From: Pseudobdellovibrionaceae bacterium
GTDB taxonomy: Bacteria; Bdellovibrionota; Bdellovibrionia; Bdellovibrionales; Bdellovibrionaceae
Direction: 5' to 3'
Assembly: GCA_021731025.1 (NCBI GenBank)
Contig: JAKFYD010000004.1
Location: 1-64,000 of the forward strand
Length of the DNA: 64,000 nt
Below, piece after piece: positions 45,755 through 53,939 of the stretch; the first letter of the stretch is position 1; each line of letters starts with the position of its first letter. The position numbers and the translations under genes were made by a program. The notes under the pieces are model-generated. The model saw only the letters and a list, made by a program, of their open reading frames with translations, had not been told where the DNA came from and did no database searches.

Positions 45755-48163
45755 TTAAGCTGCGGCCGCAGGATTTTTTGGTTTCTTTTGATCGCGTTTT
45801 GAACCTGTTTTCTTCTGTTGAGGTTTCGCGTTTTTATCAAAAGCTACTGCAAAAACTTCATCGACATTTTCAGCTAAGATAAAATTCAATTTATCTTTGA
45901 AGACCTTAGGAATATCAGAAAGATCTTTTTGGTTAGCGATCGGAATAATAATGTTGTTGATGCCCATATTTAGAGCCGCTAAACATTTTTCCCGAATTCC
46001 ACCCACCGGTAAGACTCGCCCTTGCAAAGTCACTTCGCCCGTCATTGCTAAATCATGACGAACAGGAGTGTCTGACATCAAACTGACAAGTGCTGTCGTC
46101 AATGCAATCCCTGCCGATGGGCCATCTTTTGGAATAGCACCAGCTGGTAAATGCACGTGGATGTCATACTTTTCAAAGAAATCTTCTGGAATATTAAGTT
46201 CATGCATGTGAGCTTTTGCGTAGGACATGGCTGCTTGAGCTGATTCTTTCATCACGTCGCCCAACTGACCTGTCAGTAAAAGGTGGCCTTTCCCTTTCAT
46301 TTTCAAAGCTTCGATGTACAGAACTTCACCACCAGCCTGAGTCCAAGCTAGACCTTGAACGATACCAATTTGCGAATCGATCATTTTTTCTTCGCGCAAG
46401 AATTTAGGCGGACCTAAAATCTCAGAAACAGTCGTACCGTTAACCTCGACTTTAGTGGCTTCACCCATCACAACCATCTTCGCGACTTTTCGACAGACAC
46501 TGCCGACTTCTCGCTCGAGATTACGCAGTCCAGCTTCTCTTGTGTAGCCGGCAATGATGGCGCGGATGCCATCATCAGTGAACTGGACTTGAGATTCGTT
46601 GATCCCGTTGTTTTCGATTTGTCGTTTAATCAGATGTTTCTTCGTGATCAACAATTTATCGTTCTCGGTGTAGCCAGGTATGTTTATAATCTCCATACGG
46701 TCGCGTAATGCAGCGGGTATGTTCTCCAACATATTGGCTGTTGCAATAAACAACACGTTGCTAAGGTCAAAATCAACATTCAAATAGTTATCTCGGAAGG
46801 TCGCGTTTTGTTCAGGATCCAAAACCTCGAGCATTGCTGCCGACGGATCACCGCGGAAATCGCTTCCCAACTTATCGATCTCATCCAATACAAACACAGG
46901 GTTGTTTGACTTCGCTTGACGAAGGGCTTGGATCACTTTTCCGGGCATAGCACCGACATAAGTCCGGCGATGACCACGAATTTCTGCCTCATCTTTTACG
47001 CCGCCCAAAGCAATTCGGAAATATTCCCGACCCATGGCGCGAGCAATCGATTTTCCTAAAGAGGTTTTACCCACACCCGGAGGTCCAGCAAAACACAAGA
47101 TAGGTCCCTTCATATTACTTTTTAATTTTCTGACTGCTAAGAATTCAAGGATACGATCTTTAGCTTTTGTCAGTTCGTAATGGTCTTCATCGAGAATCTC
47201 TTTAGCATGTTTAAGTTCTAAAGAGTCTGTTGTCTTTTTAGCCCAAGGAAGGTCAACCATCCAATCCAGATAAGTTCTAACCATTGTCGCCTCGGAAGCA
47301 TCGGGATGCATTCTTTCAAGACGGTGCAATTGTTTTAGAGCCTCTGTTTCAACATGTTGAGGCATTCCTGAAGTTAAAATTTTCTCGCGCAATTCTTCCA
47401 TCTCTTCCGATTTAGAATCCGCTTCGCCCAATTCGTTTTTGATCGCTTTCATCTGCTCGCGTAAAAAGTATTCACGCTGAGATTTAGACATTTCATCTTT
47501 AGCTTGTGAACGAATTTTTTGTTGCATGGACATAACATCCAATTCAGCAGCTAAAATTTCGGTCACAATTTTAAGACGTTCTTTAGGATCGTTCGTTTCT
47601 AAAACTTTTTGTGCGTCCTGAACTTTTACACCTAAATTAGATGCAATAAGATCAGCCACACGTCCTGGATCAGAGACATCATCAAGAACAAGTAAAATAT
47701 CAGGAGAAAGCGGTCGACCTAAAGCAATGATTTTTTCAATATGCTCTTTAGCTGTACGGATAAGTGCTTCGGTTTCAGAAGGATTCGCCACTTGTACGTC
47801 TTCAATTTTCTCGACGCCAACTTCAAAACTGGGAGTTGTTTTAACAAAGTTTTTGATTTGTCCTTTAGCCACACCTTGAATCAAAATTTTTACTCGACCA
47901 TCAGACAGTTTGCGCATGCGCATGATCATCGCGATGGTTCCAGTCGTATAAATAGACTCTGGAGTTGGATTTTCTTCAGTGATATCTTTCTGGGAAGCCA
48001 GAAAGATTAATCTGTTTTTTGCCAAAGCTTCTTCGACAGAACGAATCGATGATTCCCGACCTACAAATAATGGAATTATCATGTAAGGGAAAACAACGAT
48101 GTCCCGTACGGGCAACATTGGTAACGATTGTGGAATTTCTAATACTTTATCATCAAAGCTCAT
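45755..48163 (-). CDS. lon: ATP-dependent protease Lon
   Basis: Lon degrades damaged and regulatory proteins. The 802-residue protein has the N-terminal substrate domain (LPMLPVRDIVVFPYMI), AAA+ module with Walker A GPPGVGKT (360–367), and the protease dyad Ser683 in KDGPSAGIAL and Lys726 in GGIREKCLAAL, 43 residues apart as in E. coli Lon. The C-terminus is Lys/Ala/Pro-rich. The ATG follows GGAGGGG. Its stop abuts the stop of the convergent M28 gene and its terminator lies inside that gene. Confidence 0.98.
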   Translation of the reverse strand: MSFDDKVLEIPQSLPMLPVRDIVVFPYMIIPLFVGRESSIRSVEEALAKNRLIFLASQKDITEENPTPESIYTTGTIAMIMRMRKLSDGRVKILIQGVAKGQIKNFVKTTPSFEVGVEKIEDVQVANPSETEALIRTAKEHIEKIIALGRPLSPDILLVLDDVSDPGRVADLIASNLGVKVQDAQKVLETNDPKERLKIVTEILAAELDVMSMQQKIRSQAKDEMSKSQREYFLREQMKAIKNELGEADSKSEEMEELREKILTSGMPQHVETEALKQLHRLERMHPDASEATMVRTYLDWMVDLPWAKKTTDSLELKHAKEILDEDHYELTKAKDRILEFLAVRKLKSNMKGPILCFAGPPGVGKTSLGKSIARAMGREYFRIALGGVKDEAEIRGHRRTYVGAMPGKVIQALRQAKSNNPVFVLDEIDKLGSDFRGDPSAAMLEVLDPEQNATFRDNYLNVDFDLSNVLFIATANMLENIPAALRDRMEIINIPGYTENDKLLITKKHLIKRQIENNGINESQVQFTDDGIRAIIAGYTREAGLRNLEREVGSVCRKVAKMVVMGEATKVEVNGTTVSEILGPPKFLREEKMIDSQIGIVQGLAWTQAGGEVLYIEALKMKGKGHLLLTGQLGDVMKESAQAAMSYAKAHMHELNIPEDFFEKYDIHVHLPAGAIPKDGPSAGIALTTALVSLMSDTPVRHDLAMTGEVTLQGRVLPVGGIREKCLAALNMGINNIIIPIANQKDLSDIPKVFKDKLNFILAENVDEVFAVAFDKNAKPQQKKTGSKRDQKKPKNPAAAA

Positions 48164-48323
48164 GGCGCTCCCCTCCGCGTGGCTTGCGGGTCCAGGTTGT
48201 CTTGTACAAAACTTGTCGGTGTTATCCTCGAGGGGCTTTAAAGAAAAATCGCTCGCCTAAGTCCGGATTTTCAATGGAGAGGCGAAGTAACTTCGGTTTA
48301 AGACGCCGTTAAACACGGGATGA

Positions 48324-48364
48324 AGTCTGGATTTCGCGAAAATACAGACTGACATCCATGTCAG
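48324..48364. repeat. Nested inverted repeats between dksA and lon
   Basis: AGTCTG (48324–48329) pairs with CAGACT (48345–48350) around an ATTTCGCGAAAAT element that is itself near-palindromic; directly beside it CTGACATCCATGTCAG (48349–48364) is another 6-bp stem. They lie between the dksA stop and the lon start. They may be a weak terminator for dksA, an operator for lon, or both. The rest of this 236-base gap shows only the lon ribosome site. Confidence 0.35.
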
Positions 48365-48399
48365 AAAACCTTCGTCCATGACCAAAACAAGATTTATTA

Positions 48400-48771
48400 T
48401 TATTGGTAGCTCTTTAGGCTGTCTTCACGTTCTTCCATGCAGGCAATGCACAAAGTAGTGAATGGACGGGCTTTAAGACGTCGTAAGCCAATGTGATCTT
48501 CGCACACTTCGCAAAGACCATAAGTTCCATCAGCAATTTTACCGAGAGCGACTTCGATCATCATTAAGGAACGGCGGTTCCTTTCGAGAAGATGAATCGA
48601 AATATTATTATTGATATCTTGGCTCGCCACTTCAGATTCGTCAGCAGCTTGCACAGGATTCATTTGTTCTAATTTAAATTCTACAGACTTATTTAAGATG
48701 GCAGCCTTTTGTTCAAGGAGACACTCCTTGATCGCATTTACTTCCATCGAATTGATATCGCCCGAATTCAT
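48400..48771 (-). CDS. DksA/TraR family regulator with intact zinc finger
   Basis: DksA proteins enter the RNA polymerase secondary channel and, with ppGpp, tune rRNA and stress promoters. The 123 residues hold the complete four-cysteine zinc finger: Cys87, Cys90, Cys108 and Cys111 (GLCEVC ... LCIACMEER). The coiled-coil tip reads DESEVA (44–49), where the classical acidic motif is DxxDxA, so the second Asp is Glu. It starts at an ATG behind a G-rich ribosome site (GGGGGGAC). A second DksA-like gene is just upstream on the same strand. Confidence 0.92.
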   Translation of the reverse strand: MNSGDINSMEVNAIKECLLEQKAAILNKSVEFKLEQMNPVQAADESEVASQDINNNISIHLLERNRRSLMMIEVALGKIADGTYGLCEVCEDHIGLRRLKARPFTTLCIACMEEREDSLKSYQ

Positions 48772-48928
48772 CTCTGTCCCCCCTGATGATTATGGTCGAA
48801 TCACAGAAGTTTGCATATTACGAAGGATAGATGATGTGTCATCAAAAAAAAGAATTTGCTTAAGTATTCTACAAAGAATTTAACGCGCTCATAAAAATAA
48901 AAATGTGGATATCTTTGCAGAAAATTTT

Positions 48929-49306
48929 TTATGCACGAGCAAATTTTCGACTTAAAGCTTCTCGAAGTTCTGCACCTTCAATGCTGAGACGAGTCCATGG
49001 AATTGCAATTAATCTTTCAACTTCAATCGCTTCTTCTGTCTCTTCACAAATTCCAAACGTCCCTTGTTCTATTCGCGCAAGAGCAAATTCAATCTCCATC
49101 ACTTGATGACGAAGACGTTCCTGATTGATTAAAAAAGAATGTTCTTCAAGGTTTGCAACAGTGAGATCGATTTCATCTCCACCTTTTTCAGCCATGACGA
49201 AACCTTGAGCTGAAGCCTGCATGCGACTGAGCAACTCTTGCTTCAAGGTCAGTAATCTTTTTTTACACTCCACGATTAAGTCTGGCGTCAGAGATTTATT
49301 TCTCAT
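48929..49306 (-). CDS. DksA-like paralogue without zinc-binding cysteines
   Basis: 125 residues from ATG 49306 (MRNKSLTPDL), with GGGGG nine bases upstream. Aligning it by position with its neighbour, the zinc ligands are replaced: Cys87 stays, but Thr90, Ser108 and Gly111 stand where cysteines are expected. The coiled-coil tip is DEIDLT (44–49), keeping both acidic residues of DxxDxA. This recalls the zinc-independent DksA2 type of Pseudomonas, which uses C-x-x-T. A plausible role is to keep DksA activity under zinc limitation or oxidative stress; this is inferred. Confidence 0.82.
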   Translation of the reverse strand: MRNKSLTPDLIVECKKRLLTLKQELLSRMQASAQGFVMAEKGGDEIDLTVANLEEHSFLINQERLRHQVMEIEFALARIEQGTFGICEETEEAIEVERLIAIPWTRLSIEGAELREALSRKFARA

Positions 49307-49433
49307 TATTTTTCCCCCTTTTACTTGAGTCAAAGACCACAAGTGTCTGTTGAGATGAAAAAAATGATCTTATGGGTTAAAGATTATTAATAAATTAATT
49401 TTATATCTCGTATAATTTCGTTGCGGGACGCAA

Positions 49434-51128
49434 TTATTGGGTTTTTACGGGAACGATTTCGCCACGATCTAAAGTTAAAGATAACAAGGGGCGCTGAATC
49501 TCGCGCTCAGCAGTCATTTGCAGAGGTCCCAAAGAACCCGGGAACTCTTTTAAGCCACTGAGCTTTTCGATAAGATCTTCGCGGCTGGAAGCCCCTTGCA
49601 TGATCAACTGACGCAAAATCAAAGCCGAATCGTAGGCTTGAATTTCAATTAAAGAAGGATCTTCGTTGTAAATTGATTTGTATTCGCTCAAAAATCGATT
49701 CGAAGCTAACGAGGCTGGAGTAAAGCTATCCACAAACAAAATATTGTTTACAAAATTTCCGGCTCGTTTTGCTAGTCCAGGGCTATTCCACAAATTTGTT
49801 CCAAGAAGCTTAACGTTTCTAACCCCGCCATAAGAAAGGAAAGCAGAAATTTGGCCTAAAGTTTTGGCGCTATCAGGAATAAAGAGCCCATCAAAATCAA
49901 CGATCGGGGTTAATAAATCGGCAGCATTGTAATTAGCTCGAGAATTTTTATTTTTGCTGTTTGAAAAGAACTCTTTTTGTTTGCTTTTATATTCGTCCAG
50001 ACGGGCTTCAATATAAAAGGTTCCAACAAGTCTTTGCACGGGTTGTATAAAGTCCGTGTCTTTAGGGTTGTAGGTCTGCGCAGCAACAATGGTCCCCCCA
50101 CGCGCTAAGACTTCATCCCAAAACATATTTGTTGTTTCAACACCATAGGCATCATTGGGATACATGACTGCAAAACGTCTCATCCCCATTTCATCCATAG
50201 CGACGCGAACCAGATGATGAATCTGCATTTCCGTAGTCAACGAATTGCGAAAAACGTTTGGACCAAGCTCTGTTAGCCCTGATTTCTGTGAAAGAGTGAT
50301 TGTCGGTATATTAAATTCATTGGATTTTGTAATTTCAGCAAGCGCCGTCTTACCAAGAAGGCTTCCAATAATAGCAATCACATTGTCTTCATGAACTAAG
50401 CGCTCAACGCCGCGACGAGCGTTATCCGCGTTACCTTCGCTATCCATCACCGCAAGTTTAAAATTAGAGTAAGGTTGGTGTAAGCCTAGGCCCATCTGAA
50501 TACCACGCAAGGCCCGCTGGCCAATGTTGGCATTTTTTCCAGACAAGGGCAGCACAACACCGATGGTTTTCGGAGAAACTCTTTTGGAAGCTTCTAACTG
50601 ATCAATGATTTCCTGACTTTTATAAGCGAGATCAGAACCAGGTTGAAATTCGCTAACACTTCGAAAATATCTTCGTGCGGTATCAAGATCGCGGCGTTCA
50701 ACACTCATCTCTGCTAACCGATAAAGTGAATGGGCTCTTAAAAAGTTGTAATCTGCATTCCGTGAAACCTCATGCAAATCACTTTCATTCAATTTCGTTT
50801 CAACGATTTCGATCGCTCGTGCGCGAGCCTCATCCTGATCTTTTTTGGCTGGAGCTGAAACTGCGATCGAAGCTAGTAGTTTAAGCGCATCTAAATTTTG
50901 TCCTGCTTTTTCAAAGGCTAAAGCCTGCTGAGTTTGATTCAAAGTATTTTGCGCAAAGCCTGTTGTCGGAGTGGTCTCGGTATTTTTCGCACTTCCTTTT
51001 GTGGGTCGTGGACCAATTTTCACCGGAGTAGGCTTCGGCGCGCGGGTCTCGTGTCGTTTAACTTTGGAAGTACAAGAGAGCATGCTCAAAGTGCAAGCAA
51101 GCGCACTCACAATAAGAATTTTTTTCAT
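49434..51128 (-). CDS. Periplasmic-binding-fold lipoprotein (LpoA-like architecture)
   Basis: 564 residues with lipobox LSC (Cys19 in MLSCTSK). The architecture is: a Pro/Lys/Thr-rich linker, a helical TPR-like region (about 65–180, [36 protein letters not shown]) and then a type I periplasmic-binding fold (from [26 protein letters not shown] about 190) as in Leu/Ile/Val-binding proteins. The combination matches LpoA, the outer-membrane activator of penicillin-binding protein 1A in gamma-proteobacteria, but no such link is proven here. The gene overlaps dnaJ by four bases (ATGA). Confidence 0.75.
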
Positions 51129-52114
51129 TTTCGTAACCTTAAAATCTGCGCTGACTTTTCTTTGAATGTTTTGACCATAGGAGTATCGTCTGAAGACTCG
51201 GCTAATTTTTCAATCAATTCTTTTTGTTCTTTAGAAATTTGGGACGGGATATCGACTAAAACTTTGACCAACATGTCGCCAGATCCAAATCCGCCGAGCT
51301 TAGGGAAGCCTTTCCCTTTTAATCGAAAAGCTTGACCTGAATGCGTGCCGGCAGGAACGCGAATCATGGCCTTTCCCGTCAAAGTTGGAATTTCCACTTG
51401 CGTCCCTAAAAGAGCGTGAACATAGGAGATCGGTAGATCCATCACAACATCATTGTCATCACGACGAAACAAAGGATGTTCTTGAACATTAATAATTACG
51501 TAAAGATCACCTGCAGGACCATTCGGCGCAGAGGTGTCGCCTTCATTTGCTAATTTGAGTTTTTGATTTTCTTTAACTCCAGCCGGAACAGTGACAGAAA
51601 GCTTTGCGGTTTCTTCTCTACCAGCGCGTTGGCGAACAAAGTGAATCAGCTTTTCGCAACCAAGGGCCGCCTCTTCAAAGGTCAAGGAAAGGGTGTAGCG
51701 AAGGTCTGCGCCTTTTTGTGAACGGCGTTGTCGTCCAGCGCCGCCTCGCCCACCAAAAATTTCGCTAAAGACATCGCCGAAGACGTCTTGAAACTGATCT
51801 TGGTTACCAGGTTCATCACCACCGAAGCCCCCTCGGAAGCCACCAAAACCGCCCCCACCAAAGGGTCCACCAGCACCACCGAAACCAGCTTGCGCTCCGG
51901 CGTGTCCAAACTGATCATACATTTCACGTTTTTTTTCGTCGCTTAAGGTGTCATAGGCTTCAGAAATTTCTTTAAATTTTTCTTCAGATTTTTTATCTCC
52001 AGGATTTTTATCAGGATGAAATTGCAAAGCCAATTTTCGATAGGCCTTTTTAATTTCCTCCGGCGTAGCTGTGCGCGCTACTCCTAACAATGAATAAAAA
52101 TCTTTTTTAGACAC
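51125..52114 (-). CDS. J-domain co-chaperone lacking the zinc finger (CbpA/DnaJ class II)
   Basis: 329 residues. The J domain occupies residues 1–70 with the HPD motif (QFHPDKNPG) that stimulates DnaK. A Gly/Phe-rich segment follows (75–125, with long GFGG repeats), then two C-terminal substrate-binding domains. The four CxxCxGxG zinc repeats of true DnaJ are missing: the place where they should lie has only [14 protein letters not shown]. This is therefore class II (CbpA-like), and it may be the main DnaK partner because it is next to grpE. dnaK is not in the window. It follows grpE by 11 bases. Confidence 0.9.
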
Positions 52115-52125
52115 GGTTAGCTCCC

Positions 52126-52659
52126 TTATTCAGGTTTACGTGCAACGACAACCTGAGCTGGTCTGATAATTTTATCTTGCAACTTGTAACCTTTTTTAAA
52201 AACACGCAGAACATTTCCTGCAGGGACAGAGTCACTCATTTCACTGCTCAATGCCTCGTGCTGATTGGGATCAAAAGGGACTCCATCACAAGGAATTTCT
52301 GTGATGCCATTTTTTCCTAAGGCATTTTTCAGTTCATTCGAGGTCATTTCGATGCCTTTAACATAGTCATGGAAATTTTCGGCAGTGACTTGAACCGAAT
52401 TCGCTCGTTCAAAATTATCCAAAACAGATAGTAGATCTAAAGCGAGCTTTCGCGCGCCATACTTAATAAGATCGGACTGCTCTTTTATCGCATTTTTACG
52501 ATAGTTGTCGAATTCAGCCCGCAAATAAAGATAGTCCGTTTTAAACTTTTCAGCTTGCTCTTGGAATTTTTGAATTTCCGTATTTAAATCATTCGCTTCT
52601 CCATTTAGGGAAGAAGCTTCATCTTCAGAATTAATATTATTTACTTTAGAATCGGACAC
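52126..52659 (-). CDS. grpE: Nucleotide exchange factor GrpE
   Basis: GrpE releases ADP from DnaK. The 177-residue protein has an acidic, Asn/Ser-rich start (about 1–25), a long coiled-coil helix ([29 protein letters not shown], where the [11 protein letters not shown] segment is the GrpE signature), and a C-terminal beta domain ([44 protein letters not shown]). The gene is followed by the J-protein, as in hsp operons, but no CIRCE-type repeat (TTAGCACTC-type) was found upstream. Confidence 0.95.
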
Positions 52660-52760: not shown

Positions 52761-53939
52761 TTAATGGGATAAATCCCCTTCTAAAAAAGTCAGTTCAAAA
52801 AAGACCTGATTGCTTAAAACGATCCCCTGAGGGGTCAAAGTCCAGCGATCTTTGCCGAGTTGTATCAATTCTCGAGATTGCAGTTTTTTTAAACGCTTTT
52901 CCGTGGTTTCCCAAGCTTGTTCAGAGAATTTTTTTCTGAAAATAACAGGATCTAAACCAAAACTGCGGCGGAAAGCTGTATGGCAAAAGTCCGTCAGAGC
53001 TTGGTTTTCTTGAAGGGTTTCATACTGAGCTGAAGGAAGGCCTTCACAGAGTTTGGTTCCCTGATGGTTTTCGCTTTGAAGAATTTGTTTTTCATACTCA
53101 TTGATGGAATTGACGTTCCAGAACCGAGTTCCCCAAGGGGATTGCTTCGAGTATGAATGCGAACTTAATCCTAGACCCCAGTACTCCTGATCTGTCCAGT
53201 AAAGGGTATTGTGACGTGACTCAAACCCGGGCCGCGCGAAATTTGAAATCTCATACTGTTGGTAATCGGCGCTGATTAAGCCCTCTCGGAGAATTTCAAA
53301 CATCTCGACCTGATCCTCTTCCAAAGGACGATTTTTTGATAAAGGATGACCTTCGGGAACCGTTAAGCAATAGGGACTGATGTGCTGAGCTCCAGAGGTC
53401 AGAGCAATCGCGAGGTCTTTTTGCAAGCCCTCTTTTGTCTGCCCCGGCAAAGCAAAAAGAATATCAAAGTTAAAATTCACGCGAAAGTCTCTCAACATCT
53501 GCAGTGTGTCCAAAGTTTGTTGAGCGTTATGTTCCCGCTTAACCATTTTCAAAAGGGCGTCATCAAATGTCTGAGCGCCAACACTGAAGCGGTTGAAACC
53601 GCCGCGAAGATATTTTTCCATTTTCTCGGGGGTCAAAGTTGCCGGATTAATCTCTAAGGTAATTTCTGTTTCAGGACCCCGTGAAAAACCTTTCTTTTCA
53701 AGCTCGGCAATCAAAGATAAAATTAATTCCGGAGCTAGTAAACTGGGGGTGCCGCCACCAAAATAAATTGTATCGAGTTGACGCTCGGAAAAGTAATTCA
53801 GCTTTTGATGAATTTCTTTTTTCACCAGTTCGACATAATTTTCTGGAGGTAAAATTTGCGATTTTTCATAGGTTGCAAAATCGCAGTAAGAGCAACGCTG
53901 TAAGCAATAGGGAATGTGGAAGTAAACACCAAAAGACAT
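52761..53939 (-). CDS. Radical SAM heme chaperone HemW
   Basis: 392 residues with the radical SAM iron–sulfur motif CxxxCxxC at Cys12, Cys16 and Cys19 (PYCLQRCSYCDF), followed by TIYFGGGTPSLL and the HNTLYWTDQEYWGLGLSSHSY region. The single CxxxCxxC and short N-terminus fit HemW rather than the coproporphyrinogen oxidase HemN, which carries a further cysteine just after the cluster. HemW delivers heme to respiratory enzymes. It is divergent from the M16 peptidase gene, with starts only 17 bases apart, so both promoters must overlap the coding sequences or lie in that gap. Confidence 0.92.
   Translation of the reverse strand: MSFGVYFHIPYCLQRCSYCDFATYEKSQILPPENYVELVKKEIHQKLNYFSERQLDTIYFGGGTPSLLAPELILSLIAELEKKGFSRGPETEITLEINPATLTPEKMEKYLRGGFNRFSVGAQTFDDALLKMVKREHNAQQTLDTLQMLRDFRVNFNFDILFALPGQTKEGLQKDLAIALTSGAQHISPYCLTVPEGHPLSKNRPLEEDQVEMFEILREGLISADYQQYEISNFARPGFESRHNTLYWTDQEYWGLGLSSHSYSKQSPWGTRFWNVNSINEYEKQILQSENHQGTKLCEGLPSAQYETLQENQALTDFCHTAFRRSFGLDPVIFRKKFSEQAWETTEKRLKKLQSRELIQLGKDRWTLTPQGIVLSNQVFFELTFLEGDLSH

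Follow-up and report, generated by a model that had tools for sequence, protein, structure and literature searches.

The window, i.e., the whole stretch of 64,000 nucleotides analysed, belongs to a genome assembly of 3.49 Mb in 81 contigs and carries two adjacent genes of the DksA family on the minus strand, designated here P1 and P2. The initial annotation had located both open reading frames (ORFs) and named their key residues correctly: the translations have cysteines at 87, 90, 108 and 111 and a DxxE tip in P1, and C87/T90/S108/G111 with a DxxD tip in P2. The claim that the two proteins differ in zinc-binding capacity likewise holds, judged by sequence. The features of the pair are given below; alignment A1 consists of 32 zinc-less proteins picked from 75, and alignment A2 of 26 four-cysteine (C4) proteins picked from 34.

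48400..48771, minus strand: P1, four-cysteine DksA-family protein, 123 aa (ORF translation; PF01258, 43.3 bits)
48439..48513, minus strand: P1 zinc finger C87xxC90...C108xxC111, the same in all 26 C4 proteins of alignment A2
48631..48642, minus strand: P1 coiled-coil tip D44-E-S-E47 (DxxExA with A49); E at the D74 equivalent in 22/25 family orthologues
48929..49306, minus strand: P2, zinc-less (C-T-S-G) DksA-family protein, 125 aa from ATG (ORF; PF01258, 33.3 bits)
48974..49048, minus strand: P2 altered finger C87xxT90...S108xxG111, the same in all 32 zinc-less proteins of alignment A1
49166..49177, minus strand: P2 coiled-coil tip D44-E-I-D47; D at the D74 position in 73/75 zinc-less proteins

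Both proteins passed the gathering cut-off (24.9 bits) of PF01258 (zf-dskA_traR) and stayed below the DksA equivalog cut-offs: P1 scored 80.2 against 115.5 for TIGR02420, 87.4 against 105 for NF033459 and 47.6 against 289 for PRK10778, and the corresponding scores of P2 were 55.5, 50.4 and 27.6. BLASTP gave modest identities to E. coli DksA (39% over 74 aa for P1 and 32% over 99 aa for P2) and aligned P1 with P2 over the finger and the helix before it only (48% across 54 residues). One ungapped register with E. coli DksA, offset by 27 counted back from C114, places residues 44, 47 and 49 of P1 and P2 alike at D71, D74 and A76, which bears out the identical motif spacing reported initially. The register of P1 was the same in phmmer, and a gapped BLASTP alignment of its tip was rejected, as it requires a 6-residue gap inside helix 2. 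Read through position 49, the tips are D44-E-S-E47-V-A49 in P1 and D44-E-I-D47-L-T49 in P2; the canonical DxxDxA is found in neither (DxxExA and DxxDxT, respectively). The canonical zinc set is represented by four of four cysteines in P1 and by one of four in P2.

A third DksA-family copy, P3, is encoded on another contig of the same genome; it is zinc-less, P2-like and 52% identical to P2. The named loci closest to P2 belong to Bdellovibrionaceae and other Bdellovibrionota, and no plasmid match for P2 was found at E 1e-5. Positions 47900-49900 had no match in Rfam at E up to 1, and the window contains no tRNA genes.

Structure prediction with AlphaFold2 gave a confident model of P2 without zinc (mean pLDDT 91.2; 32 sequences) and a similar one of P1 (89.3; 26 sequences), such models being unable to reveal the presence or absence of zinc. 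Both models show a pair of long helices, a tip loop that includes D44 (residues 42-47 in P2 and 38-44 in P1), a small globular region and a helix at the C-terminus, i.e., the antiparallel coiled coil, globular domain and C-terminal helix of the DksA fold. The best PDB match of P2 is the zinc-free DksA2 of Pseudomonas aeruginosa (4ijj, TMq 0.88); P1 also matched DksA2 best (TMq 0.77), followed by E. coli DksA within RNAP complexes. By sequence and model, P2 combines an incomplete zinc set with the DksA fold, as expected of a zinc-independent protein of the DksA2 type.

E. coli DksA (1tjl, 5vsw) has the coiled coil, globular domain and C-terminal helix in common with the pair, the C4 finger with P1 and the two tip aspartates with P2. 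In contrast to it, P1 has E in place of D74 and M at positions 98 and 139, P2 has neither the zinc set nor the residues of ppGpp Site 2, and both proteins start ~27 residues later. DksA of Chlamydia trachomatis (6ptg) is alike in its non-C4 finger and, by alignment, in the AIP motif that occupies the R129 place, and unlike in the residues at the zinc places; its fold match is weaker (TMq 0.55).

Distribution, neighbourhood and descent of the two types

The genome set comprised 39 genomes of 33 genera (the window's own and 38 relatives), with 25 of them in the window's family. PF01258 was found in 39/39, with 110 matches altogether. Residue tables cover 109 of these; the omitted match (G014:C117:13404, some upstream bases of which are N) was read separately as C-T-S-G with the tip DEID. 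The tabulated proteins comprise 75 zinc-less and 34 four-cysteine ones. The zinc places read C-T-S-G in 73 zinc-less proteins and C-T-G-G and C-L-S-G in one each. The zinc-less type occurs in each of the 39 genomes; in ten, eight of them at least 96% complete and the remaining two 83 and 86%, it is the sole DksA type found. G027, G029 and G035 have one DksA-family match each, which is zinc-less. The tandem pair occurs in 23 of the 25 family genomes, and G017 and G018 carry the C4 gene without an adjacent P2. One of the 23 genes grouped in the residue tables as P2 of family pairs is a P3-type gene from G018.

When the phylum was sampled more widely, the zinc-less profile, which catches C4 proteins too, matched in 112 of 114 genomes at E up to 1e-8. 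Thirty-nine proteins from 39 genomes of other families, a non-random sample taken from the stronger profile matches, read C-T-S-G (17), C-T-S-A (6), C4 (9), C-C-C-H (5), C-S-S-A (1) and C-T-C-A (1). The five C-C-C-H proteins (loci L211, L217, L219, L220 and L223) represent another family of the phylum, f17.

The motifs of both types are thus conserved beyond chance (C-T-S-G in 73/75 zinc-less proteins; DxxE in 22/25 family P1), and the finding is stronger than first stated because it extends across a lineage. The possibility that P2 is a decaying gene was rejected, as its replacement residues are almost invariant among zinc-less homologues.

The pair is flanked by the following genes:

45755..48163, minus strand: lon, downstream neighbour (Pfam Lon_C and others), a conserved neighbour
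49434..51128, minus strand: LppC-like/periplasmic-binding-protein lipoprotein, upstream neighbour (PF13458, PF04348)
51125..52114, minus strand: DnaJ-type protein without the CXXCXGXG zinc domain (DnaJ and DnaJ_C matches only)
52126..52659, minus strand: grpE (PF01025)
52761..53939, minus strand: HemW/HemN-like radical SAM protein (PF04055, PF06969), which we take to be hemW

The order hemW-like gene, grpE, dnaJ, LppC-like lipoprotein gene, dksA gene(s) and lon forms a conserved block, and the adjacency to lon pointed out in the initial annotation recurs in most relatives. In 21 of the 25 family genomes, the dksA gene(s) have the lipoprotein gene as well as lon close by (in G023, lon is 3.2 kb off); three of the four family genomes without the full lipoprotein-dksA-lon context are cases of contig ends. 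Outside the family this context was seen in 11 of 14 genomes, with one zinc-less gene in six, two zinc-less genes in three and a zinc-less gene plus a C4 gene in two, and the block was not seen in the stretches read of G027, G029 and G035. Because the block outside the family holds zinc-less gene(s), mostly without a C4 gene, the latter seems to have joined a zinc-less gene that was already in place.

Most of the genomes read from the order encode, between dnaJ and dksA, an LppC-like lipoprotein with a Peripla_BP_6 domain. The CXXCXGXG motif is absent from all 34 neighbour ORFs examined, and a DnaJ possessing this domain is encoded elsewhere in the window's genome (G000:C9). DnaJ and DksA proteins that are both zinc-less are encoded in one conserved block.

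The distribution bears on the zinc-dependent/zinc-independent switch proposed initially. In P. aeruginosa, the cited part of PMC9213440 describes DksA2 as devoid of zinc coordination, repressed by Zur and made only in zinc starvation; by analogy with DksA1/DksA2, P1 would serve zinc-replete cells and P2 would take over under zinc starvation via Zur. The full C4 finger in P1 only and DksA2 as the best solved match of P2 agree with this, and the likeness extends to the threonine at the second zinc position (CxxT) and to the coexistence of a C4 DksA in the same organism. DksA2 (4ijj) has C135/A138 where P2 has S/G, it keeps K98, R129 and K139 where P2 has E98/I129/A139 (alignment), and it is restricted to zinc starvation, whereas the zinc-less type here is universal in the genome set. 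Being universal and the sole type in 10/39 genomes, the latter is therefore the standing version and not a low-zinc backup. A second zinc-less copy (P3) exists elsewhere in the genome, the neighbours (lon, the LppC-like gene, dnaJ, grpE) include no zinc genes, and the suggested search for a Zur site found no Zur-like palindrome above chance upstream of P1 or P2 with a consensus that we assumed and that may not be this phylum's. The difference in zinc capacity between the two proteins stands; the switch is very unlikely, and zinc control of the pair is unlikely.

In the full-domain tree with all rows, the 75 zinc-less proteins formed one group with a support of 100/100, a value based on few columns and on a bootstrap that had not settled. 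When the coiled coil alone was used (75 columns, with 7 divergent C4 rows omitted), the C4 and zinc-less types were separated by one branch of the unrooted tree (SH-aLRT 97.2). Since a single branch divides the two types even there, P1 and P2 are no recent duplication, and an origin by recent tandem duplication was rejected. The trees gave no sign of P1 regaining its cysteines from a zinc-less gene inside this order. The subfamilies of P1 and P2 most likely split before the diversification of the order.

Ordinary redundancy, with interchangeable DksA copies retained for dosage, would be in line with the common fold and spacing of P1 and P2. It is highly improbable in view of this single-branch split, the retention of distinct residues across 39 genomes and 33 genera, and the distinct elements upstream of P1 and P2 (see below).

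Coiled-coil tips, ppGpp Site 2 and upstream elements

At the D74 place, E is present in 22 of the 25 family P1 proteins, and three have DxxD instead of DxxE; D is also found in both C4 partners from outside the family. The zinc-less proteins have D in 73 and G in two cases, and E in none of the 75. The P1 tip, first described as a motif loss, is better viewed as an acid-for-acid change common to one family.

The exact D-x-x-E-x-A tip was found in 16 of the 25 family P1 proteins, and DxxExA is described as the conserved tip motif of GreA/GreB (PMC9239242); the two Gre proteins of the window's genome have the tips DISENA and DRSENA. P1 might, on this basis, have moved towards a Gre-like role, with the tip stimulating transcript cleavage or acting in elongation. 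We regard this as distinctly unlikely: the finger and the C-terminal helix of P1 are those of DksA, and its family matches are to DksA rather than Gre, with no Gre family matched in Pfam at E up to 1, and three family members have D at the tip place. Moreover, Gre_N matched twice in 36/39 genomes and once in the other three, and its presence in every genome therefore leaves no Gre gap for P1 to fill. The candidate role of P1 as a replacement for an absent Gre factor was rejected on the same counts.

In E. coli DksA, the residues listed as contacting ppGpp are K98, R91, K139, L95 and R129, and the K98A or R129A substitution is described as abolishing Site 2 binding with RNAP binding retained (PMC7676912). 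DksA with ppGpp at Site 2 is presented in the same source as generally conserved among proteobacteria. Against the canonical K/R/K at positions 98/129/139, P1 has M/R/M and P2 has E/I/A. The zinc-less proteins have E98 in 72/75, I, L, V or M at 129 in 75/75 and A139 in 75/75 cases, and R91 is retained in most copies. Basic residues at both 98 and 129 occur in three of 109 proteins, namely P1 of G017 and both C4 partners from outside the family. Site 2 has most likely been lost in nearly all DksA copies of the family, and P1 and P2 probably do not use it; P2, with E/I/A in place of K98/R129/K139, is predicted to lack the site and hence to act there independently of ppGpp. The site might be rebuilt from other residues.

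The window's genome has one Rel match, and its omega subunit begins with MARVTVEDC. The beta-prime subunit (PF05000, E. coli rpoC) was unmatched in the window's own assembly and is present in four relatives, and its absence is probably an assembly gap. Beta-prime residues were read in three relatives (L228 being left out), and the rim stretch GERYNKVVDIWA (N680, K681) is retained in all three. These also retain K615 and have R or K at the R362 position and K at the R417 position, places which we take to form Site 1.

The following elements were identified upstream of the two genes:

48815..48846, minus strand: P1 sigma70-like element TTTGATGACA-N16-TAATAT; RTGACA-N16-TAnnAT in 9/25 orthologues
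49354..49381, minus strand: P2 bipartite element TAACC-N18-ATC; TAACC-N17-19-[AG]TC in 21/22 family P2 upstreams

The motifs were discovered and counted largely in the same sequences, with the 11 loci outside the family as a partial exception, and the shuffle means below come from mononucleotide shuffles in which kinship among sequences stays uncorrected. TAACC-N17-19-[AG]TC precedes 32 of 33 P2-position genes. Within the family the count of 21/22 compares with a shuffle mean of 0.54; outside it, the element was found at 11/11 zinc-less genes next to the lipoprotein gene and at 0/3 second zinc-less genes (shuffle mean 0.24, covering 13 of those 14 genes). It was absent from 25 upstreams of P1, 23 of P3 and 14 of P3 outside the family. 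The form with GTC was not found upstream of the lon, grpE, lipoprotein, hemW-like and M16 peptidase genes, and was found at one of 24 dnaJ genes. The element presumably resembles AAC/GTC promoters of ECF sigma factors. A genome-wide search of 24 genomes with the strict element gave 24 matches (three at P2) vs 19 in the reversed control, i.e., no clear excess, and the idea of an ECF-sigma regulon was dropped.

Upstream of P1, RTGACA-N16-TAnnAT occurs in 9/25 (shuffle mean 0.03) and a T-run followed by RTGACA in 13/25 cases (shuffle mean 0.02); the former was found at no P2 or P3 gene. P1 and P2 are probably expressed separately, with both elements as putative promoters. The upstreams of P3 (e.g., L149:5837-6208) have a set of their own: TTGCAAA-N14-19-TTAAT in 11/23 and the palindrome-like GTTCCAwnTTGG in 9/23, which together could be an operator beside a promoter.

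Proposed roles of the two factors

From the observed motifs and their conservation, the phylogenetic split, the synteny, the upstream elements and the predicted folds, we infer polymerase binding, zinc occupancy and ppGpp independence, and consider it reasonably probable that P1 and P2 both regulate RNA polymerase through its secondary channel, as non-redundant members of the DksA superfamily with an old division of labour. P2, together with P3, would be the standard DksA of the lineage, with a globular domain that folds without zinc and a DxxD tip that would reach the active-site region of the polymerase and alter initiation; lacking Site 2, it would not depend on ppGpp there. P1 would be an accessory factor with a zinc finger, gained as an extra copy next to lon; its tip reads DxxE, and its Site 2 would have been lost in part. 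P2 would be expressed from the region with the conserved bipartite element, and P1 from its own sigma70-like promoter.

A thiol/redox split offers a different account of the same fingers, in which the P1 cysteines sense oxidants and P2 resists oxidation and remains active. The title of a cited work calls the C4 finger of DksA a thiol switch, oxidised DksA is described as handled by DnaJ/DnaK in Salmonella (PMC8262869), and grpE and a DnaJ are encoded near the pair. Nevertheless, the C114-equivalent cysteine is present in 75/75 zinc-less proteins, which are therefore not thiol-free, and the nearby DnaJ is without the zinc domain to which reductase activity was mapped according to the same source (PMC8262869). 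In P. aeruginosa, DksA2 is described as able to replace DksA1 for H2O2 tolerance (PMC9213440). On balance, such a split is unlikely.

As for the favoured division of labour between two polymerase regulators, it may be drawn more sharply, and this we propose tentatively and with considerable doubt. In the Bdellovibrio family, the DksA system would have been uncoupled from ppGpp Site 2 (in 24/25 family genomes, no DksA-family copy found is basic at both 98 and 129, the exception being G017), though Rel, a MAR-type omega (in the window's genome) and beta-prime N680/K681 (in three relatives) persist. Two factors would share the work, a zinc-less one with a DxxD tip for initiation and one that has a zinc finger and a DxxExA tip of the Gre type, and each would have a promoter element to itself.

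If true, DksA has been kept over dozens of genera without the zinc set or the Site 2 residues in an old, partly predatory phylum, and this would provide a natural test of which DksA effects require ppGpp. Among the matches listed in our literature search (Bdellovibrio DksA/ppGpp, DksA2 and zinc, the DksA tip and Site 2), which covered titles and the starts of abstracts and mostly passed over subscription papers, there was no published account of this DksA pair. Transcription of a gene called dksA (Bd3519) is described as falling when Bdellovibrio leaves attack phase (PMC2797640), and the DksA system may therefore bear on the life-cycle switch of the predator. In the single-contig genome G105, the position of P3 is 3.42 Mb and that of the pair 3.74 Mb. 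Going by position and gene numbering, Bd3519 more likely corresponds to P3 than to a member of the pair.
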